Source: Clostridiaceae bacterium (GTDB lineage Bacteria; Bacillota; Clostridia; Saccharofermentanales; Saccharofermentanaceae). Taken from it: a stretch of 64,000 bases of DNA. The notes below the pieces were generated by a model. It saw only the letters and a list, made by a program, of their open reading frames with translations, did not search any database and was not told the origin of the DNA. Positions 46,096 through 58,261 of this stretch are shown here, piece after piece. Position 1 is the stretch's first letter; each line of letters begins with the position of its first letter. Both the position numbers and the translations under genes were made by a program. The stretch spans positions 62,001 to 126,000 of the forward strand of contig DUPM01000088.1 in assembly GCA_012838315.1 (NCBI GenBank), read 5' to 3'.

Positions 46096-46129
46096 GTTAT
46101 AATTCAAAAAAACAAAGGTGGAAACAATC

Positions 46130-46654
46130 ATGCAAATCGATAACAATGACGCCCTTTCTGAGAACCACCTAGACGCACTTATGAAAACGCAACATTTTTT
46201 TGAGTGCGAACTCAATAAGATGGTCGATGATATCGCAACTGAAGAGGCCTGTCGCATTTCAAAAGTCAAAAGTCGTAACGACTCCAGAACAGAGCATGTT
46301 CAAATTGTGATGTATAGACACACTAACGGATCCGGTCGCCTTTTTGGCGGTGCGTTGCTTCAGATGGTTGACGTAGTCGGCGCCATATGCGCGAGAAGAC
46401 ATGCAGGAACGGAAGTCACGACGGTCGCTATTGATCATCTGGAGTTCAAAGCGCCTGCGCAGATCAATTCGACATTGGTCTTAATTTCCGAAGTCGAATC
46501 GGTCGGTCGGACATCCATGAAAGTCAAAATTTCGACTTTTGTTGAACAACTGAATGGATCTAGAGAAGAAATCAACACCGCGCACGTCACATTTGTCGCC
46601 CTAGATCGCCAGAATCGTCCAACTCCCGTTCCAAGATTGCTTGAAGCACAATAA
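46130..46654 (+). CDS. Hotdog-fold acyl-CoA thioesterase
   Basis: 174 residues from ATG 46130 (AGGTGG at 9 bases; GTG 46118 lies inside that site). A single hotdog domain (about 55-160): RLFGGALLQMVDVVGAICARRH with the DVxG-type active-site helix, VTTVAIDHLEFKAPA and VGRTSMKVKIST, typical of the YciA/BACH acyl-CoA hydrolases. It cleaves a fatty acyl-CoA; chain length unknown. Last gene of normal base composition before the AT-rich island. Confidence 0.85.
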   Translation: MQIDNNDALSENHLDALMKTQHFFECELNKMVDDIATEEACRISKVKSRNDSRTEHVQIVMYRHTNGSGRLFGGALLQMVDVVGAICARRHAGTEVTTVAIDHLEFKAPAQINSTLVLISEVESVGRTSMKVKISTFVEQLNGSREEINTAHVTFVALDRQNRPTPVPRLLEAQ

Positions 46655-46762
46655 TATCCTTTACTAAATTTTCGCAAGAAAAAAGTGGACTTCCTTTAGT
46701 TGGACAGCGATAAAGAAGTTTTCACAAATATCGTATAAAACTTAATACAGCGGGTTATGCAG

Positions 46763-46797
46763 ACAGGCACACGGAATCGACCGTGTGCCTGTTTATT
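46763..46797 (+). terminator. Rho-independent terminator of the thioesterase gene
   Basis: Perfect 12-bp stem (46763-46774 with 46781-46792), 6-base loop, T-rich tail. The remaining 46655-46841 has no gene; the change to AT-rich sequence begins just after this hairpin. Confidence 0.85.
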
Positions 46798-46841
46798 GAA
46801 TAATAATAAAAAATAAGAATACTATTTCTCAATTGAGCAAG

Positions 46842-47906
46842 TTATAAATGCTTTTCAAACAGCAGATATTCCCTTTGGTAAAGGATTTTATTGTCAATAT
46901 ATTTTTCGGACACCTTGCCCTTTTTAATAAGAGCACCTATTGATGAAGATCTTTTTCTGCGAAGCTCTTCAAACATAGCTTGTGACAAAGCAGATCCAAG
47001 TCCCAGATGCTTTTCGTCAACGCCAATATACAGAAGAATGTAATTATCACATCTTCTTCTGTTTTTAAGCATAAATAAAATCTCAGGAAGTCCTATATTT
47101 CCGCAAAGTCTATTTCCGTAATCGGGAACGCTAATAAAAAATCCTGCCAGCTTATTATTTTTATATCCAAGTTTGACCATAGAAAAATCAAGAACTGTTT
47201 TGAGGTCCTTATACATCTCTCTAAATTCTTTTTCGGTAATATGTGAGAAAACAGGGAAATCACTGTATAGCTTAACAAGCAGAGTGTAAACCTCACCGAT
47301 AACCTTGTCCCAGTCTTTTTTTGACGGAGAAACAATGCTGTAACCTCTTTTGGTAAAAAAGTTATATCTTTTTATATAGTTTTCGTCATCTTCCTCGTTC
47401 TTTGAAAGCTTTTTATAGATGTTTGATACATACACCTGGGAAATTTTATAGCCGTTTTCCTTCCATAGCTTCGGGTAATAGTCCTTGCCATAGGGTTCGG
47501 AAAAGAATCGCTTTTCATCAAATTTGTTAGATTTCATTCTGTATCCAATCCAAAAGCTTGCGTCAACAGGACCTGTAAGCTTTCTTATTCCGTTTTCTCT
47601 TGCAAAGTTTTCGGCTGCTTCCATAATAGTTTTTACTGCTTCAATATTATCCTCGCTGTCAAAAAAGCCGAGATAAGCTTCATCTTTATCGGTATATATT
47701 GTTACAGCACATCTTGCAACAACCTTGCTGTCACAGTAACATAGAAAAGCTGTAAATGTGAAATAATTGCTCAACGTATGTGTACCTTTGAGCAATGCAA
47801 TTTCATCGGAACGCTTCTGCATAAGCTCTTTTTTTATATGTATGCGTGAGGGAAAATCTAAAAAATCTTCATAATCATTTTCGGTCACTTTTTTTACAAG
47901 ATACAT
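46842..47906 (-). CDS. GNAT-type N-acyltransferase (YghO-like)
   Basis: 354 residues. The N-terminal half has the layout of YghO-like acyltransferases (EAYLGFFDSEDN, GIRKLTGPVDASFWIGYRM, EPYGKDYYPKLWKENGYK); the C-terminal half is a GNAT-like fold (MVKLGYKNNKLAGFFISVP, GVDEKHLGLGSALSQAMFEEL). It probably transfers an acyl group from acyl-CoA or acyl-ACP to an amine. As last gene of the lipid-type operon, an amino head group is a plausible acceptor (inference). AAGGAG site lies within the last codons of the previous gene; the gap is one base. Confidence 0.75.
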   Translation of the reverse strand: MYLVKKVTENDYEDFLDFPSRIHIKKELMQKRSDEIALLKGTHTLSNYFTFTAFLCYCDSKVVARCAVTIYTDKDEAYLGFFDSEDNIEAVKTIMEAAENFARENGIRKLTGPVDASFWIGYRMKSNKFDEKRFFSEPYGKDYYPKLWKENGYKISQVYVSNIYKKLSKNEEDDENYIKRYNFFTKRGYSIVSPSKKDWDKVIGEVYTLLVKLYSDFPVFSHITEKEFREMYKDLKTVLDFSMVKLGYKNNKLAGFFISVPDYGNRLCGNIGLPEILFMLKNRRRCDNYILLYIGVDEKHLGLGSALSQAMFEELRRKRSSSIGALIKKGKVSEKYIDNKILYQREYLLFEKHL

Positions 47907-47907
47907 T

Positions 47908-50295
47908 CTATTTCTCCTTTCCGCATATTTTTATTATTCCGCTATTGCCGTCAAGCTCTATTATATCGCCGTCTTTTATCAGTTCAGAAGCGTTTTTTAC
48001 TCCGACAACAGCAGGGATTTTCAGCTCCCTTGAAATAATAGCAGTGTGCGATAAAAGAGAACCTTTTTCGCTGATAATTCCCTTTGAATTTGACAAAAGA
48101 AACACCCAGCCCGGGTCTGTCATTTTTGCAACAATTATTTTACCCTTGGTATCAGGAGGATTGCAGGCATCTTTAACAACAACTGCTGTTCCTTTTGTTA
48201 TTCCTGCAGAAGATGGTGTTCCGTAAAGCGTTTTTTCATCTGAATCAACGCCTGAAACAGTGTCTGTGCGGATGATGTTTTTATCGAATTCCTTGCCCGC
48301 AAAGATTATTCTTGAAAATGCGGGAAGCTCATAAAATCCTTTGTAGTCACGTTTTCTTTTCTCTATTATGTCAGCAAAGGTATCAGGATTTCCGTTAAAA
48401 ATCTCATCTTTTGTAAGATAGAAAACATCTCTTTTATCACATATTTTCCCATCTGAACAAAAGATTTCTCCTGCTCTCAAGAACATTGAACGCACCATTC
48501 CGTAAATTCTTGTTCTGTTAAGGCGCGAAATTTCTCTGTTCATTATTCCCACAGAAGCCTTTTCAGCAAAATACATAATTCGTTTTTTTCTCTTTTTTAT
48601 ATCAGCTGTTATGCTTTCTGTTGATTTCTCAGTTTCATCAAGCAGAGATTTTTTTGTTCTTTCGAATATATCTTTATCAGAAGAAAGTTCGCTGATTTTT
48701 TTCATAAGCAGCAACGGACTTTCCCTGAACGTAACAGTTTCCATTTTCAATTCCTCAGGCGAACGGTCACCGTAAAGTAAAATATATTCATAGAACTTTT
48801 CTTTGAATTCAGGGTAAGCGTCAAGCTTTTCTTCAAGTTCTTTTTCCTTCTGTGAGCCGTTCAGTTCATCAAGCATTTTTCTATCATAGTCAGCAAGCTT
48901 TATCATTGCCCTTATTGGCTTCATACTTTCTATATTTGAAATACCGCTTATAAATTCGTTAACTGTTTTTTCATAGTCTGTTACACCTGATTTTTTGATT
49001 TCAGCTTTAAGCAGTCCCGTGAAAACAAATGCGTAAAGATCATTGAGAAGCGTTATATCCCATACGGAAAGAACCTTTTCTGATATCTCATCATAGAGTG
49101 ATTTTACATCTTTGAGAGTGATATCTGCGGTGAAATTCTCCCTGAAATATTTTTCTGTTGCAGGAAATGAAGCGTTGAGCTTTTCCATATTTTTTCTTAC
49201 AGAAAAGGCTTCGGAGATAACATTTACATATGTAGAAAGTCTTTTAAAAAATGAAAGCTTTACTTCATCGCTGTCAACAGATTTTTCCGTAACACCCATC
49301 ATATCCTGCCACACGGGAATTATCTTTTTTGACATTGGAAGAAATGACAATACAGTATACCAATTACTGATTTTATAGTATACTCTGCCGTTTGCCGAGC
49401 CTGTCATATTATAATAAGTTTCGTTATATCTGTTTACAATTTTTTCATCACGAAGAACTCTGTTGGCAAGCCCCTTGAAGACACCGCTGTACGCTTCTTT
49501 CACAAAAGAAATTGTTAACGGCAGCGATATTCCGGGATAGCTTTCCACTATGTTGCTGTTATCAAGAATAAGTGGAGTTTTATTATTTATTGTCGTTATT
49601 GGTCTGACCTGAAGGATAAAAACTTCATCGTTCTTTACAGCAAATTCAATATCAATAAGCTTTCCAAAGATTTCTTCTGTTTTTTCGCATAACGAAATAA
49701 GCTCTTCTATCAAATTCTCTGTCATAGACGGAGATTTTTCACAGCTTTTTTCGGTATAATATTTTTTATCTGTTCTGTTGTAATAACAGGTTGTAACGTC
49801 TGTTTTTTCTTCAACAACATTGTCCCCTGTTCCGCTTCCCATAACAATAACGCTTTCGTTTAAAACGCCCTGCGGATTGGAAGAAAATATAACGCCTGAA
49901 TAATCAGAGTCAATCATTTCCTGAACAATTACAGACATTTTTATGGTGTCAGGATTTATATTGTTTTCCTTACAGTAAGAAATAACATTTTCCTTTTCGG
50001 CAGACAAAAAGCAATCCTTTATTTTATCGTATACATTTTCTTTTTTTACAAAAAGAAAGCTGTCAAACTGCCCTGCGAAAGAGTTATCAGAGGAATCCTC
50101 ACAAAGTGCAGATGAACGCACCGAAAACTCCCTTCCGTCATTCAAGAATGAAAGGAGCTTTTCTTTTTCGGGGATTTCATTTATACAAAAAAGCGTCGGA
50201 ACATTAAATCCGTTCTCTTTCATAATAAAAAGACGTTCTGTTTTTTTTCCGATTGTGTATTCCTTGAAATTATCTGTTGTAATAAATGTATTCAT
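47908..50295 (-). CDS. PEP-synthase/RPH-like phosphotransferase 1
   Basis: 795 residues. N-terminal ATP-grasp domain as in pyruvate-phosphate dikinase and rifampin phosphotransferase (EFSVRSSALCEDSSDNSFAG at 56-75, VIVQEMIDSDYSGVIFSSNP, FILQVRPITT near 240). A long helical middle domain of unknown specificity follows (about 250-640), then a swivelling phosphohistidine domain with GSLLSHTAIISREL, His750 being the carrier. No PEP-binding TIM barrel is present, so PEP or pyruvate is not expected as substrate. By analogy with RPH the enzyme would split ATP to AMP and Pi while phosphorylating an acceptor bound by the middle domain. Start ATG 50295 overlaps the UbiA stop by 4 bases. Confidence 0.85.
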   Translation of the reverse strand: MNTFITTDNFKEYTIGKKTERLFIMKENGFNVPTLFCINEIPEKEKLLSFLNDGREFSVRSSALCEDSSDNSFAGQFDSFLFVKKENVYDKIKDCFLSAEKENVISYCKENNINPDTIKMSVIVQEMIDSDYSGVIFSSNPQGVLNESVIVMGSGTGDNVVEEKTDVTTCYYNRTDKKYYTEKSCEKSPSMTENLIEELISLCEKTEEIFGKLIDIEFAVKNDEVFILQVRPITTINNKTPLILDNSNIVESYPGISLPLTISFVKEAYSGVFKGLANRVLRDEKIVNRYNETYYNMTGSANGRVYYKISNWYTVLSFLPMSKKIIPVWQDMMGVTEKSVDSDEVKLSFFKRLSTYVNVISEAFSVRKNMEKLNASFPATEKYFRENFTADITLKDVKSLYDEISEKVLSVWDITLLNDLYAFVFTGLLKAEIKKSGVTDYEKTVNEFISGISNIESMKPIRAMIKLADYDRKMLDELNGSQKEKELEEKLDAYPEFKEKFYEYILLYGDRSPEELKMETVTFRESPLLLMKKISELSSDKDIFERTKKSLLDETEKSTESITADIKKRKKRIMYFAEKASVGIMNREISRLNRTRIYGMVRSMFLRAGEIFCSDGKICDKRDVFYLTKDEIFNGNPDTFADIIEKRKRDYKGFYELPAFSRIIFAGKEFDKNIIRTDTVSGVDSDEKTLYGTPSSAGITKGTAVVVKDACNPPDTKGKIIVAKMTDPGWVFLLSNSKGIISEKGSLLSHTAIISRELKIPAVVGVKNASELIKDGDIIELDGNSGIIKICGKEK

Positions 50296-51191
50296 ATCTT
50301 TCCAAATATCATATAGGCGGGAATTATCAGAAGCATTGTAGCCTCTGTAATGTATGTATAAATTTCAACTCTTGTTACAAGCCTGAATCTTTCGGGATTC
50401 TTTATAAACATAATAAACTCTGCGGTCATTATTGTAACATTGATTATGAGGATAAAGAAACCGATTATATTAAGATTTATAACAAGGAGAAGATTTGTAA
50501 CTATATCCACAAGCGTGAGGATAAGGATAAACAGCGTAGATTTTTTATGTCCAAAAAGCTTTGAATATGTTGTGTATTCCGTTTCATCCTTCGGCGCACG
50601 GATTTTTCTTGCAATCTCCCATATAAGCGCAGGAAAATAAAGCGTCATAAGAACAAGAAAGGATGTTAATGTAAATGGCTGAAGCTCGTACTTTATGCAG
50701 CAGAATGAAATGATATACAAATTCAGTACCATCTGCACAGGGTTGTGCGTAACCAGTGCAAGCGGCAGACTTTTGCTGATTTTATGCTTCTGGAAAAACC
50801 ACAATGACATAAGAATTCCATAAGTCATAAGAAACAGATAGAATAAAATGTTATTCATAAAAATAACATTCAGAATTGTCATAACGGCAAGGTCTATGGC
50901 AACAACAGTGTTCAAGTCTTTTTTATAAACCTTTCCGCTTGGGAATGCTCTGTCGGGGAAAAGTCGTTTATCTGATTCGTAATCCTTGAAATCATCAGCA
51001 ATACGCAAGAACATCAGAAAACCGAAAATCGTTATTCCGCCAACAATTTCCTGTATGCCTAAAGAAAAATCCGTAACACCATAATTGAGAAGCAAAATAA
51101 AATATATCTCGCCAAAGACTATAAAGCCAAGCAGAAGTCTCGGAATAAGCGGATACATTTCCTTGAAATAAATATTAAGTCGCCTGAGCAT
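50292..51191 (-). CDS. UbiA-family prenyltransferase
   Basis: 299 residues, eight or nine membrane segments. The first Asp-rich motif is RIADDFKDYESD (Asp66, 67, 70 and 74) followed by the usual KRLFPDRAFPSG loop; the second region is EIARKIRAPKDE (192-203), with the second Asp set reduced. It would attach an isoprenoid (from a diphosphate donor) to an acceptor in the membrane. Relatives make quinones, heme O, or the archaeal digeranylgeranylglyceryl phosphate; no quinone genes are here. GGAAAG site; overlaps the decarboxylase gene by 17 bases. Confidence 0.85.
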   Translation of the reverse strand: MLRRLNIYFKEMYPLIPRLLLGFIVFGEIYFILLLNYGVTDFSLGIQEIVGGITIFGFLMFLRIADDFKDYESDKRLFPDRAFPSGKVYKKDLNTVVAIDLAVMTILNVIFMNNILFYLFLMTYGILMSLWFFQKHKISKSLPLALVTHNPVQMVLNLYIISFCCIKYELQPFTLTSFLVLMTLYFPALIWEIARKIRAPKDETEYTTYSKLFGHKKSTLFILILTLVDIVTNLLLVINLNIIGFFILIINVTIMTAEFIMFIKNPERFRLVTRVEIYTYITEATMLLIIPAYMIFGKI

Positions 51192-52053
51192 TTTTCTTTC
51201 CTATCCTTTCTCCGATGAGGACTTTGGTTTCAATTCCTTTTTCAGAATTTTCAAGTATATCGGCATCAATAGTCACGGTGCCTTTTTTTACCATAACAAC
51301 GCAGGTTGAGCCTCCCATTTCAAAGTATCCCTTTTCTTCACCCTTGAAGAAACTTTCTGCGGAGTAATTTATTATTTTGCCTACAAGCAAGGCACCGATT
51401 TCAATTTGATAGCAAGTGCCGAAGTTTTCCGTTTCGATATACGAAACACTACGGAAGTTTTCTGAAAACACCTTATATTTTTTCGAAGAAATCGGACTCA
51501 CGGTATGAAGCTTACCATTTATATATTTGCTTCGGATAAGCTTTCCGTCGTCGAAAAAGCAATATCTGTGGTAATCGTCAACCGTTAATCTGAAAACAAG
51601 ACAATATCCACCATAAAAGTCCGTTGTCAAATCTTCGTCAATGATTTCCCTTGCAGTATAGATACTGTTTTTTATGGGGATTTTTCCGTCATCTGTAATT
51701 CTGTAGCAAAGAAGCTTGCTGTCTGCTACGGATATCAAATCATTTTTTTCGGCTGAAAAGACTCTTTTTCCGTCAGCAAGCTTTCTTGTGAAAAAATCGG
51801 AAAAGGAACTGTACTCCCTGTCCTCAAAATCACTCATAACAATTCCGTATTCTTTGACAAAGGGGGCAATTTTCTCTGTGGATTTTCTTGTGGAATTTCT
51901 TTTTGCATTGAGTCTTGAATAGCCTTTTCCTGCAATAAAAAGTCTTAGAATAATTCTTCCCAATATATTGCCGTACAGAAAATTAAGAGCTTTGCCACCA
52001 TACTGTTTATCCTCATAAAAGGTTTTGTTTTTTCTGTCGTAAATCCTTGCCAT
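51175..52053 (-). CDS. psd: Phosphatidylserine decarboxylase proenzyme
   Basis: 292 residues from ATG 52053, where GGTGG is 5 bases upstream; the frame also starts at TTG 52065. Pyruvoyl enzyme: DFFTRKL near residue 87-93, VDDYHRYCF (active-site His, about 161), LHTVSP, and the self-cleavage site FEMGGSTCVVM with Ser249. The first residue of the usual LGST is Gly. Cleavage before Ser249 would give a beta chain of about 248 and an alpha chain of about 44 residues. Converts phosphatidylserine (or a related lipid) to its ethanolamine form at the membrane. Partner of the PssA-type gene just upstream. Confidence 0.9.
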   Translation of the reverse strand: MARIYDRKNKTFYEDKQYGGKALNFLYGNILGRIILRLFIAGKGYSRLNAKRNSTRKSTEKIAPFVKEYGIVMSDFEDREYSSFSDFFTRKLADGKRVFSAEKNDLISVADSKLLCYRITDDGKIPIKNSIYTAREIIDEDLTTDFYGGYCLVFRLTVDDYHRYCFFDDGKLIRSKYINGKLHTVSPISSKKYKVFSENFRSVSYIETENFGTCYQIEIGALLVGKIINYSAESFFKGEEKGYFEMGGSTCVVMVKKGTVTIDADILENSEKGIETKVLIGERIGKKNAQAT

Positions 52054-52054
52054 A

Positions 52055-52663
52055 TTATCCACCAACGAAAATTACTGCAACGGCAAGGGCTATTGCAAGA
52101 AGTCCGAGCAGCAGATATGCAATTCCCTTCGGTTTTGCTATTTTTATTTTAAGTATAAACAGAACAGCTGTGACAAAAAGACATACAGGCATTATTATTT
52201 CGGTAATGCTTAAAATGCTGCCTGCAATAAAAGCAGATACAACTATCAGAGACGCAAAGGTTACAGGTAATCCTGTATAGAATTTTGTTTCCGATGAAAT
52301 GGAAGCAGAAACATTGAAAAAGCCCAGCCTTGTTATAGCTGCAAGCACATAAAACACACTGATTGCGATATGATACCAACTTGTGTTTCCCATAGCAAAG
52401 GAAATTACAACAGGAAAAACAGCAAAGCTTACCATATCGGTAAGGGAGTCTATCTGTATTCCGAATTCTTTTTCTTCTTCCGTTCTTTTACAGCGTCTTG
52501 CTATCATTCCGTCAAAGAGGTCTGCGACGCCGCATACAATAAGGCATAAGACAGCATATTTCATTTTTCCCGAAAGTGCCAATGCCATTCCGAGGACTGC
52601 AGCTGCTGCACCTATATATGTAAGTATTACCGATTTGTTATAGTATCCGAGAAACATTTTCAA
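52055..52663 (-). CDS. pssA: CDP-alcohol phosphatidyltransferase, PssA type
   Basis: 202 residues, six to eight membrane segments. Signature D-x2-D-G-x2-A-R ... G-x3-D-x3-D is complete: Asp48, Asp51-Gly52, Ala55-Arg56, Gly68, Asp72, Asp76. The 11-residue spacing between Arg and Gly and the FPVVISFA segment that follows favour serine transferases over PgsA. It would join serine to a CDP-activated lipid. TTG 52663 (7 bases from GGTG) and ATG 52657 are both possible starts; TTG gives a 4-base overlap with the upstream stop. Confidence 0.85.
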   Translation of the reverse strand: MKMFLGYYNKSVILTYIGAAAAVLGMALALSGKMKYAVLCLIVCGVADLFDGMIARRCKRTEEEKEFGIQIDSLTDMVSFAVFPVVISFAMGNTSWYHIAISVFYVLAAITRLGFFNVSASISSETKFYTGLPVTFASLIVVSAFIAGSILSITEIIMPVCLFVTAVLFILKIKIAKPKGIAYLLLGLLAIALAVAVIFVGG

Positions 52664-55170
52664 TTCTTTTCACCGCCAATTATTATTTCGCCCGTTTCGC
52701 CGTTTATTGTAATAGTTTCGCCATCCTTGATAAGCTTTGTTGCATTTTCGGTGCAGACAACGCAGGGAATGCCGTATTCTCTTGAAACTATTGCTGCGTG
52801 ACATAGTATTCCGCCGTACTCCGTAACAATTCCGCCCAGCATAGCAAATTTACTTGTCCAGCCTGTATCGGTGAACTTAGTTATAAGGATGTCGCCCTCG
52901 CATAATCTGTCTGTTTCGTCAAGAGAGTGAATTACTCTTGCTGTTCCTGTTGCCTTGAAACAGGAACAGCCTATTCCGCATAACGCCTTACCTGCAACAC
53001 TGCTTGATGTATTTGCAAATTTTGAGCCGATTTCGTTTTCACTTGTAAAATTTCTGAAAGAGGAATAGTATACCTTGTTTTTTTCTATTATTCTGACGAA
53101 TTCTTCCTTTTTGATGTTATTATCAAGCAAGTTTCGTATATCTTCAATTTTTGCAAACCAGATGTCATTTTTATCTGAAATATAATTTTCATTGAACAGT
53201 ATTTCAGCGAGCCTTAACGTATACGCTCTGATTATGCAGTAAAATCTTGTTGAAACATCTCTGAATTCTTCTCTCCACCAAAGAAGCTTTCGCATTTCAG
53301 CTACATTCTTTTCAAACTTTCTGTAAGCTGATGCAGAAAGTTTTTTCTTTACCTTTTCCATCTCTTTGCTGAAATCTTCACGCAGACGCAAAGAATCGGT
53401 TTCAGGTGAACATTCATCACCTAAAGCACAAGTTCTTTTTACATCATCTATTACCGTGATTATATCCTCATAAAAAGACGGATATGTAACATCAAGTTCC
53501 TTCTTGGAGTGATACCCGAATTTTTCTATATACTCCAGAACCTTTTCGCCACAAGGAACAGAGTTGGTTTTTCCGGCTATTTCAGAAGCAGGCGTGTCGC
53601 TCCAGAAAGCAAATGCAGCTTTGTCGCTTCTGATACTTCTGCTTATTTCCCACATATCACAAAAAGGGAGTAGATGTGAAATATTATCAAGACCGCCTAT
53701 AAGGGTAAAATAACCGCCCTTTGTGGTGTGCTTCAGGATTTTATCTTTATACAATGACTGATGAATTGTGTTGATAAAAATCTGTCGGAAATATGTGCTT
53801 TCGCTGTTAAGGTAATCAGTGAAAACAAGCTTTTTCCATTTTGCTTTTATTTCGTCAGCCGAAAAAGGTTTGTCCTTATCTGCAAAATAATCGGAATAAA
53901 TGTTTAAGAGTTCTGATTTGAATTTTTCGGCATTATCCTTGCGTTCCTTGACAATCTTTTTCTGCGCCAATGCCATTATGGCAATATCCACAAGAGTTTT
54001 AGGAGTAACTGATGTAGTAACGCCATCTCCATCATACGTTATTTTAACACCCAATTCACTGTCAAAATCTCTTTCCTTGTATCCAGGAACTTTAGCCATT
54101 GCTGATTTTACAACGCTTAAATTCCAATAAGGTCTTCCGTAGAACATATCTCCAAGCTTTTTTTCAAGCTCGGCAGGCTTCAAGATTTTAGATTCAATAA
54201 GGAATTTACGCAATTCACTTTCCCAGATATATTCATAAAGACTCCACATATACGGGGTACAAACGGTTGCTGAAACTCCGCCGTCCTTAAAGTCTGCGGT
54301 AGTCCATTGGTCTTTTATTTCACCGTAAAGAATTTTTGTTATTGCTCTTGCCTGAAGGATATAAAGAATTTCATTTTCATATGCAAATTCAATATCGCAT
54401 GGGTAACCGAAAAACTGCTGAATACGAAGCGCTGTATCTGCAATTTCTTTTATTTTGTCGTCAGAAATAAGCTTTCCTGATGAAAGTGTAATTTCTTTAT
54501 TCCACCAATTATAGGAATATCTTTCGGCTGCAACCTTTCCGCTTACAAGATTTTCGCCCTGACCTTTTGCTGCCTCAATAAAGATTTCTTTATCACAACC
54601 GCTTGTAGGATTTACCGTAAATGCGACTCCGCTTACCTCGGAATCAATCATTTCCTGAATAATAACTGACATTCCGATTTCATCGACAGACAATTCATTT
54701 GCCGCAATATAAGAAAGAACTGTTTCCGAATATGCCGAAAGATAGCATTTTATAATAGCTGCTGAAATTTCGTCAATACCTTTTGCGTTGATTACTGTAT
54801 CGTACTGACCCGCAAAAGAAAATCCGCTTAAATCTTCTTTTATTCCGCTGCTTCTTACGGCGTATTTCTTTTGCATGTTTATTTTTTCTTCTATTTCTGA
54901 TTTTACTTCATTATGTAATTTAAGCGAGGAATAAAGCTCTGAAATTTTATCGGAGGTTTCTTTTGCATTGCTTTTTGAAAGCACCTCCAAAAGCATATCA
55001 ACCTCGTGCTTGTTATCATTTGCGGAAATAGTTTTCGTGAAAATATCGTTCCCGAGAACAATACCTGTCGGAACATTGAAGCCGTTACGTTTCATTAAGG
55101 AAAGAAAAGCTGCTTTGTTGCCGACCTCTCCTGCGTTAAGCTTTTCTTCAAGACAATACATATCATTCAA
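52660..55170 (-). CDS. PEP-synthase/RPH-like phosphotransferase 2
   Basis: About 836 residues from TTG 55170 (AAGGA 5 bases upstream) or 833 from ATG 55161; the frame opens further upstream without support. Same three-part plan as the gene at 47908: ATP-grasp (KKYAVRSSGIKEDLSGFSFA, IIQEMIDSEVSGVAFTVNP, YILQARAITK), a large middle domain of about 450 residues, and a phosphohistidine domain (GGILCHAAIVSREYGIP, His791). There is a Cys-rich segment before the last domain (GIGCSCFKATG). The two paralogues share little in their middle domains, so they probably act on different acceptors. It is 14 bases after the CarS-like gene. Confidence 0.85.
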   Translation of the reverse strand: MNDMYCLEEKLNAGEVGNKAAFLSLMKRNGFNVPTGIVLGNDIFTKTISANDNKHEVDMLLEVLSKSNAKETSDKISELYSSLKLHNEVKSEIEEKINMQKKYAVRSSGIKEDLSGFSFAGQYDTVINAKGIDEISAAIIKCYLSAYSETVLSYIAANELSVDEIGMSVIIQEMIDSEVSGVAFTVNPTSGCDKEIFIEAAKGQGENLVSGKVAAERYSYNWWNKEITLSSGKLISDDKIKEIADTALRIQQFFGYPCDIEFAYENEILYILQARAITKILYGEIKDQWTTADFKDGGVSATVCTPYMWSLYEYIWESELRKFLIESKILKPAELEKKLGDMFYGRPYWNLSVVKSAMAKVPGYKERDFDSELGVKITYDGDGVTTSVTPKTLVDIAIMALAQKKIVKERKDNAEKFKSELLNIYSDYFADKDKPFSADEIKAKWKKLVFTDYLNSESTYFRQIFINTIHQSLYKDKILKHTTKGGYFTLIGGLDNISHLLPFCDMWEISRSIRSDKAAFAFWSDTPASEIAGKTNSVPCGEKVLEYIEKFGYHSKKELDVTYPSFYEDIITVIDDVKRTCALGDECSPETDSLRLREDFSKEMEKVKKKLSASAYRKFEKNVAEMRKLLWWREEFRDVSTRFYCIIRAYTLRLAEILFNENYISDKNDIWFAKIEDIRNLLDNNIKKEEFVRIIEKNKVYYSSFRNFTSENEIGSKFANTSSSVAGKALCGIGCSCFKATGTARVIHSLDETDRLCEGDILITKFTDTGWTSKFAMLGGIVTEYGGILCHAAIVSREYGIPCVVCTENATKLIKDGETITINGETGEIIIGGEKN

Positions 55171-55184
55171 ACATATCCTTTCGG

Positions 55185-55778
55185 TCAAAACATATTTTTT
55201 CTTAAATGACAGAAATATAAAAGCATATTCAGTATGATATGTGTTACTGCACCAAGCAGTACATATATAAAATAATACCATATTGGCAACGGATAAAAAA
55301 TGCATACAACGAGAACACAGCCGAAAATTGAATCGGCCTGGTCAAGGAAGATGAAGAAAACTTTTTTTATACCGCTTATATCATTCTTACCAGGAGTAAT
55401 GTCAAGCCTTCTTTTAAAAAAGCTGTTTGGAAGCTCAAATAAAGCGTAGGCAAAGCCGATAAGTGTTCCAATCATAATATTATACAAAAAAGAATTGTTA
55501 TAATTTCTGTAAAAATAGTTATAGGCTGTAAGAGAATCGCTGTTCAGGGAAATAATTCCCCACAGGACTGAGAACACAGCTCCGAAAGTAATCATTCCGA
55601 TAAAGCCCTTGAAGGTCTTGTTATCGCCGAATATTCTTCTTCCGTCAGAAAAATTCTTTCCGAAATCAACAGGCTTTTTCAGAAAACCACATACATTTAC
55701 CTTGCACCATACCATATTCATAATACCTGCAAGAATAACGGGTAGCAGTGTTACATACATTTCTGCAAGCTTTTCCAT
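55185..55778 (-). CDS. CarS-like CDP-lipid synthase (CDP-archaeol synthase family)
   Basis: 197 residues, five membrane segments. GRRIFGDNKTFKGF (46-59) corresponds to the G-D-x-K-T-W/F-R/K-G motif of the CarS/CdsA superfamily. Later SFFKRRLDI and FLDQADSIFGC match the CarS pattern SFIKRRL ... LDQLDF. CarS is the archaeal enzyme that activates unsaturated archaetidic acid with CTP; short relatives occur in bacteria. First gene of the operon, AAAGGA site before ATG 55778, promoter at 55816-55844. The host presumably has its own CdsA elsewhere, so this copy is expected to serve a special lipid. Confidence 0.8.
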   Translation of the reverse strand: MEKLAEMYVTLLPVILAGIMNMVWCKVNVCGFLKKPVDFGKNFSDGRRIFGDNKTFKGFIGMITFGAVFSVLWGIISLNSDSLTAYNYFYRNYNNSFLYNIMIGTLIGFAYALFELPNSFFKRRLDITPGKNDISGIKKVFFIFLDQADSIFGCVLVVCIFYPLPIWYYFIYVLLGAVTHIILNMLLYFCHLRKNMF

Positions 55779-55815
55779 AAAAATATCCTTTCTATATAGT
55801 ATAATAATCTATTGT

Positions 55816-55853
55816 ATTATAACATAAAAGCTGTCAGATTTCAATATCCGACA
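55816..55853 (-). promoter_or_regulatory. Promoter of the island operon with dyad operator
   Basis: Minus strand TTGAAA (55839-55844), exactly 17 bases, TATAAT (55816-55821) preceded by TG one base upstream (extended -10). The dyad TGTCAGAT-ttcaat-ATCCGACA (55832-55853; arms pair at 7 of 8 positions) overlaps the -35 box and would suit a repressor. Confidence 0.75.
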
Positions 55854-56134
55854 ACTTTTGATGTTTTTAATTCAATTTGGTCGATTATTAGCCAAAACTT
55901 GCTAATCACTGCAATCTCCTCACAATTTAACTACTCAAATCAGTATATTTGTCAGTGTATTTATAAAATAAAAACTGGCATTATTGAAAGATTATACAAT
56001 TATTGTACTAAACTAACCGCTGATATAAAGCGTTACAACATTTATTCCCCTTTCTTTTTATACAATCCTCCAAAATTTCATAATCCCCCTCCATCAGACT
56101 TAAAAATTCGTTCGAATTTGTAGGTACTTATGAA

Positions 56135-56347
56135 GGGGGTATTTTTCTGCCCTTAGCCGCTGCAGATTTTTTTGAGGGGTAATGCCCATTCGGGCGGAAC
56201 AAGAAAAGTAGGAATACGGAATATTTTGTTTTTTGTATGCGTAGCAAGCAGAGAAAGTACCGTATACTTTCGGGGGAATCGGCTTTTTGAGTTGCTACCC
56301 CCTCAAAAAGTATCAGCCGTCCGCCGCTGTGCTGATACCATACCCCC
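56135..56347. repeat. Nested inverted repeats upstream of the recombinase gene
   Basis: Outer pair GGGGGTAT (56135-56142) and ATACCCCC (56340-56347). Inner pair TTTTTGAGGGGTA (56169-56181) and TACCCCCTCAAAAA (56296-56309), differing by one extra G/C. Within the right half is a hairpin GTATCAGC/GCTGATAC (56310-56317 and 56331-56338). Smaller stems are GCCC-ATTC-GGGC near 56184 and TAGGT-TGC-ACCTA near 56354. Confidence 0.7.
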
Positions 56348-56391
56348 ACATTTTAGGTTGCACCTAAGACCGCTGAATTTTAAGGAGGGTG

Positions 56392-56490
56392 ATGAAATTC
56401 ACAGAAAAACAACCTCGTAAAAAAAGATGCCCTATACAATTTATCGTGACAAATATCTCAACAAAAATTGAAGGGTATCAGAAACAATGA
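56392..56490 (+). CDS. Possible small basic protein before the recombinase
   Basis: 32 codons with a full AAGGAGG site (56382-56388), though only 3 bases from the ATG. The product is basic (starts MKFTEKQPRKKR) with no recognised domain. Its TGA overlaps a following ATG, and the recombinase starts 27 bases later, so it may be a leader peptide of that gene or nothing. Confidence 0.35.
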   Translation: MKFTEKQPRKKRCPIQFIVTNISTKIEGYQKQ

Positions 56491-56517
56491 TGTTGCCGCA
56501 AGGCAGAAAGGAGTTAA

Positions 56518-58213
<1,696 letters not shown>

Positions 58214-58261
58214 GAAAACCTCTTTGTGGCACCCTCACCTCGGAAGTCCCCTTTCATTAGT

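Follow-up and report, generated by a model that had tools for sequence, protein, structure and literature searches.

The question raised by this locus is which compound is produced by seven tightly packed genes of a Clostridiaceae bacterium, encoding proteins of the CarS, PssA, Psd, UbiA and GNAT families and two dikinases related to RPH, named here PEPS1 and PEPS2. The genes occupy positions 46842-55778 of the window, that is, of the whole analysed stretch of 64,000 nucleotides (contig DUPM01000088.1, positions 62,001 to 126,000). In our opinion, judging from gene families and gene neighbourhoods, this operon is best read as a mobile and modular pathway leading to an undescribed ethanolamine lipid, a reading in which we have fair confidence.

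The operon and its gene families

All seven minus-strand open reading frames (ORFs) listed in a preliminary description of this DNA were found again at their positions (Table 1), and its picture of a packed, AT-rich operon was borne out. In the order from CarS to GNAT, the neighbouring genes are connected by a gap of 14 bases, overlaps of 4, 11, 17 and 4 bases and a gap of 1 base, when the start of PEPS1 is taken as the TTG at 55170 (its longest ORF extends to 55305). The content of guanine and cytosine (GC) is 0.34–0.41 over the operon versus about 0.43–0.51 in the flanks. The families had also been named correctly, as follows from Pfam and NCBIfam matches and, for UbiA and GNAT, from structural models. 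Pfam cut-offs were passed by PPDK_N and PEP-utilizers (twice), PS_Dcarbxylase, CDP-OH_P_transf and CarS-like.

Table 1. Genes of the operon and the mobile element carrying it, with positions in the window
Feature	Position	Strand	Basis
CarS-like CDP-lipid synthase (CTP:lipid-phosphate cytidylyltransferase family)	55185..55778	-	PF01864, 73.7 bits, cut-off 22
PEPS1, RPH-like dikinase, proposed lipid-alcohol kinase	52660..55170	-	PPDK_N and PEP-utilizers
PssA/archaetidylserine-synthase-like CDP-alcohol serine transferase	52055..52663	-	PF01066
Psd, phosphatidylserine decarboxylase family	51175..52065	-	PF02666, 159.5 bits
UbiA-fold membrane transferase, distinct subfamily	50292..51191	-	PRK13592, 7e-126; AlphaFold model
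PEPS2, second RPH-like dikinase	47908..50295	-	PRK06241.2-3, 834 bits, cut-off 850
Tandem-GNAT acyltransferase, YghO-related	46842..47906	-	hhalign to YghO; AlphaFold model
Large serine recombinase of the element	56518..58197	+	Resolvase, Recombinase, Zn_ribbon_recom and DUF4368
Mobile element (operon and recombinase)	46695..58240	.	Comparison with sister genome and L046

Distribution of the gene set

Relatives were sought with the UbiA protein in 84,980 genomes, one per species, and 249 loci were obtained; the gene content was analysed for the best 80 of them, with hidden Markov models run on all frames. These 80 loci are from Clostridia, mostly of gut and rumen origin, and their cultured carriers include Pseudobacteroides cellulosolvens, Butyrivibrio sp. 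INlla14 and Ruminococcus flavefaciens. Of the variants described below, P. cellulosolvens DSM 2933 and Butyrivibrio INlla14 represent the one with PEPS1, R. flavefaciens YRD2003 the one with a DGK, and strain 1XD8-76 the one with the core only. Within the GTDB family of the host, UbiA was found in 41 of 115 genomes, and all of these except the host belong to one other genus. At the 80 loci, UbiA (80) is accompanied by PEPS2 (79), GNAT (73), CarS (60) and an AMP-binding ligase (38); beyond the seven families, only this ligase and the PF01219 diacylglycerol kinase (DGK) recur in operon position. With UbiA relatives known from 249 loci and the gene set found again in the 80 that were analysed, the grouping is not a matter of chance, and the co-occurrence in other genomes, by which it was earlier suggested to check the operon, does exist.

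No match to UbiA was detected in viral contigs, and none was detected on plasmids with the window protein; the UbiA of a Roseinatronobacter plasmid (see below), used as a query, matches only itself. None of the 398 genomes in a phylum-wide sample exceeded the cut-off of PRK13592, and their weak matches were UbiAs without PEPS2 or GNAT nearby. GNAT matches on plasmids of Chloroflexota and Rhizobium have unrelated neighbours.

Mobile element

In the genome of a sister species from the host's genus, only 26 bases separate the stretches that in the host lie to the left of 46664 and to the right of 58240, so about 11.5 kb, containing the operon and the serine recombinase, was inserted in the host or lost in the sister species. 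The same element is located at a different site of an Oscillospiraceae genome from goat cecum (L046), with 99.2% nucleotide identity from 46695 on, and the operon of one more locus (L045) is 99.3% identical to that of the window. Recent horizontal transfer of the element is well supported by the empty site in the sister genome, the near-identical copies elsewhere and the GC contrast, in agreement with the mobility supposed previously; the recombinase noticed beside the operon has the expected domains. The left end, common to L046, is exact to a few bases, and the right end is approximate; there are imperfect inverted arms, and no clean att core was identified at the ends. An acyl-CoA thioesterase-like gene (46118-46654) is situated directly outside the left end and is chromosomal in the sister genome.

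A core independent of the head group

According to gene content, the core of the pathway is formed by UbiA, PEPS2 and GNAT, often together with an acyl-CoA ligase. At 11 uncut loci of the 80 it stands without head-group genes. Among the 13 genomes whose locus lacks CarS, 12 have no CarS genome-wide (the remaining one has a marginal match), and 7 have no PS decarboxylase genome-wide; thus, as far as these genomes indicate, UbiA, PEPS2 and GNAT need no ethanolamine lipid as a substrate.

A homologous core was found on a plasmid of Roseinatronobacter sp. S2, an alphaproteobacterium (L150, NZ_CP121116.1, 523-8507), around a protein of the DUF3419/BtaA family, in the order UbiA-PEPS2-DUF3419/BtaA-family-membrane protein-GNAT-AMP ligase (UbiA 6.7e-13, PEPS2 482 bits, YghO-type GNAT 8e-17, AMP ligase 3e-10). 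BtaA transfers an aminocarboxypropyl group to the free hydroxyl of diacylglycerol. Since this hydroxyl is its known substrate, the BtaA-family partner points, by analogy, to a diacylglycerol-like product of the core, and the Roseinatronobacter operon probably yields the same lipid in a betaine-type version. In Streptomyces clavuligerus, a plasmid (L156, NZ_CP065235.1, 7024-12401) carries a PEPS2-like gene and an unannotated UbiA of the subfamily with the ExxRK motif described below, in a cluster with AfsA-like and isoprenylcysteine methyltransferase-like genes.

Head-group branch and its proposed kinase

The sequence of reactions from a CDP-lipid through a serine lipid to an ethanolamine lipid, already proposed in the preliminary description, is supported by the predicted functions of CarS, PssA and Psd. 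CarS matches the NCBIfam CarS equivalog with 82.5 bits, below its cut-off of 148; the best NCBIfam match of PssA is archaetidylserine synthase (2.6e-24, 86.1 bits versus a cut-off of 240, which is not reached), together with a match to pssA (5.8e-21). In most full operons, CarS is followed by PssA and Psd in gene order. Host CdsA is encoded elsewhere, away from the operon. Because the operon contains the only PS decarboxylase of the host, it cannot be regarded as an ordinary phosphatidylethanolamine (PE) route with bystander genes; the absence of the whole insert from the sister species and the recurrence of the gene set speak against this too. At some loci (L092, L075, L077), PssA, alone or together with Psd, is found several kb away from UbiA, and Psd occurs without a detected PssA in five CarS loci.

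Each of the 60 CarS loci has exactly one candidate for a lipid kinase, either PEPS1 (29) or a DgkA-type DGK (31), and neither was found at any of the 11 CarS-less loci with enough sequence upstream. No PF01219 kinase was found anywhere in the host genome, and each of two DGK-type genomes analysed for it (those of L113 and L114) has a sole PF01219 kinase, which adjoins CarS. As these two kinases are mutually exclusive and both tied to CarS, the simplest reading is that PEPS1 is a non-homologous replacement of the lipid kinase making the phosphate for CarS. Its His motif is present in 28/28 full-length homologues, and its best PDB match is rifampin phosphotransferase (5hv2/5fbs, 6e-65). The two RPH-like genes are not interchangeable: PEPS1 goes with CarS, and PEPS2 with UbiA.

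UbiA, PEPS2 and GNAT

The only family match of the window UbiA is to NCBIfam PRK13592, slightly under the cut-off of this model; the PF01040 cut-off is passed by the orthologue from P. cellulosolvens and by the UbiAs of L061 and L150. Its AlphaFold model (pLDDT 80) has the UbiA fold, and the top PDB matches are the archaeal DGGGP synthases 6m31 (Foldseek E 5e-4, TM 0.66-0.70) and 7bpu, with A. fulgidus UbiA and UBIAD1 ranking behind. The sequence is about equally distant from DGGGP synthases, chlorophyll synthases and EboC. Motif 1, RxxDxxKDxExD, in which the motif Asn is replaced by Asp, was present in 83/83 UbiA sequences from three phyla. All 83 also have ExxRK in place of the second Asp motif, corresponding to D180/D183/D187 in MjDGGGPS (PMC9385802), and DxxxD was found in 1/83.

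The loss of the second motif makes a prenyl-diphosphate donor doubtful. PEPS2 is a near-constant partner adjoining UbiA in three phyla, with an invariant catalytic His (72/72) and nearly invariant R/E/D of the ATP site. Taken together, the lost acids and this constant partner suggest that PEPS2 may prepare a phosphorylated substrate, which UbiA would use instead of a classic prenyl diphosphate or in addition to it.

GNAT has no Pfam match and no meaningful family match in Pfam or NCBIfam. Its model (pLDDT 86) resembles tandem GNATs as well as FemX-type transferases, and the protein was aligned with E. coli YghO by hhalign with a probability of 98.3 (E 1.3e-14); relatives of YghO are presumably bacterial ceramide N-acyltransferases. 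An acyl-CoA ligase is often encoded beside GNAT in the relatives. The annotation of yghO itself in E. coli K-12 (L126 7044-8216) is that of a putative DNA-binding transcriptional regulator, but by profile it matches the tandem-GNAT acyltransferases encoded in the operon.

Proposed pathway and alternative explanations

The sequences show the families, the conserved residues of the active sites, the rule connecting the kinase with CarS, a core that does not depend on the head-group branch, and mobility; all substrates and the product named in the following scheme are predicted. The core enzymes, with the ligase in about half of the loci, would form a two-chain, diacylglycerol-like lipid alcohol: the ligase and GNAT would add an acyl chain, PEPS2, using ATP and a phospho-His, would supply a phosphorylated substrate to UbiA, and UbiA would join a second chain, probably isoprenoid or alkyl, by an ether bond to a glycerol-type scaffold. 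Etherification of glycerol is proposed because the nearest solved folds, DGGGP synthases, etherify a glycerol hydroxyl; the prenyl or ether chemistry of UbiA is only inferred. The lipid alcohol would then be phosphorylated by PEPS1 (whose place is taken by a DgkA-type kinase in one half of CarS-bearing relatives) and converted by CarS into a CDP-lipid, in which PssA would exchange CMP for serine, and decarboxylation by Psd would give the ethanolamine lipid. More tentatively, gut Clostridia may have in this lipid a third kind of membrane glycerolipid, combining one prenyl- or alkyl-ether chain with one acyl chain and made with a UbiA of altered active site and a PEP-synthase-like dikinase as the lipid kinase; its head-group modules would be swappable, and its dikinase-UbiA-GNAT core would be shared with an alphaproteobacterium (the dikinase-UbiA pair with an actinomycete).

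Several observations weigh against this scheme. There is no GGGP synthase to make the first ether: this PcrB-family enzyme was not found in the host genome or in 11 of 14 other genomes, with marginal matches in three. The UbiA lacks the second Asp motif, which binds diphosphate in known prenyltransferases. The tree of UbiA needs only about two switches between PEPS1 and DGK and about two gains or losses of CarS, so the rule connecting the kinase with CarS is based on few independent events. DgkA-type kinases of Gram-positive bacteria often phosphorylate undecaprenol, and the CarS-less Roseinatronobacter operon encodes a membrane protein with phytol/dolichol-kinase-like motifs (recognized by eye, no Pfam match), so a kinase could serve UbiA in that organism. 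The last two facts also favour the idea that PEPS1 or DGK phosphorylates a prenol or polyprenol as the UbiA donor, as in phytol salvage; this seems rather unlikely, because both kinases are missing from the very UbiA loci, 11 of 11 uncut ones, that have no CarS.

The order assumed in the preliminary description, that is, ordinary PE made by CarS, PssA and Psd that later receives an N-acyl group from GNAT, a prenyl group from UbiA and phosphate from the RPH-like enzymes, is unlikely. It would account for all enzymes being in one operon and agrees with the relationship of GNAT to YghO and with the ligase beside it; however, seven minimal-variant genomes keep the core without any PS decarboxylase, CarS is missing from nearly all CarS-less-locus genomes as stated above, and the occurrence of one kinase depends on CarS and not on GNAT. 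The same GNAT-YghO profile match could indicate a sphingolipid-like pathway, in which GNAT N-acylates an amino-alcohol lipid and the kinase, CarS, PssA and Psd produce a lipid resembling ceramide-phosphoethanolamine, and it is known that bacterial ceramide formation requires an N-acyltransferase and an acyl-activating enzyme (PMC11324152). This variant is improbable, since neither serine palmitoyltransferase nor CerR is among the families recurring in the conserved clusters of the 80 loci (serine palmitoyltransferase was not searched in the rest of the genome), and UbiA and PEPS2 are left unexplained; a known sphingolipid cluster was rejected for the lack of a conserved serine palmitoyltransferase family beside these loci. 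Equally improbable is that the compound formed by the core is a small natural product, prenylated or polyketide-like, and no membrane lipid. PEPS2-like proteins do resemble RedH/PigC ligases, and the PEPS2-UbiA pair adjoins an AfsA-like gene in S. clavuligerus, but CarS, PssA, Psd and DGK are membrane-lipid enzymes, as is the BtaA-family partner in Roseinatronobacter.

If the proposed ethanolamine-lipid pathway is real, a ready-made route to a membrane lipid undescribed as far as could be found is exchanged among common bacteria of gut and rumen, and RPH-type dikinases, not known to act on lipids, gain the role of lipid kinases. Archaeal-style enzymes (UbiA, CarS) would be combined with acyl chemistry of the bacterial kind, a mixture of relevance to the lipid divide. 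Cultured carriers make the pathway testable at once.

Comparison with known systems

With the terms used, no relevant open-access paper was found on this gene set, on UbiA with a dikinase or on ether lipids of Butyrivibrio; subscription papers were mostly outside the search. Among known systems, the archaeal phospholipid route (DGGGP synthase, CarS, archaetidylserine synthase and archaetidylserine decarboxylase) has four consecutive families that are also present in the operon, with the UbiA fold nearest to DGGGP synthase and PssA nearest to archaetidylserine synthases. In the operon, however, CarS is accompanied by a kinase, whereas the DGGGP of archaea carries its phosphate already; neither PEPS2 nor GNAT takes part in the archaeal route in its known form, and the second Asp motif of UbiA is lost. 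A straight archaeal lipid pathway was rejected because of the missing GGGP synthase and this missing motif (motif 3). Bacteria of the FCB group have archaeal-type lipid genes with GGGP synthase beside DGGGP synthase and no CarS (PMC7852524); the presence of a DGGGP-synthase-like UbiA in bacteria is common to both cases, whereas here CarS occurs without GGGP synthase.

The elb operon for ether lipids, which yields an unusual PE-type lipid, consists in myxobacteria of FAR-ACS-ACP-AGPAT fusions and dehydrogenases (PMC9131029). Only acyl activation and acyl transfer are common ground with it, and it was rejected as having no shared gene set. As to the synthesis of betaine lipids by BtaA, the DUF3419 protein belongs to the homologous core operon and is absent from the window, where the head group is predicted to be phosphoethanolamine.

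PEPS1 and PEPS2 share with RPH an ATP-grasp domain and a swivelling His domain with the catalytic His kept. They differ in context, which is lipid synthesis, and in scores (274 bits for PEPS1 and 199 for PEPS2 versus the NCBIfam RPH cut-off of 999), so far below this cut-off that their assignment as RPH was rejected. On a Natrinema plasmid (L155 5920-10879), a full-length PEPS-like gene of this haloarchaeon precedes two ORFs resembling a split second copy.

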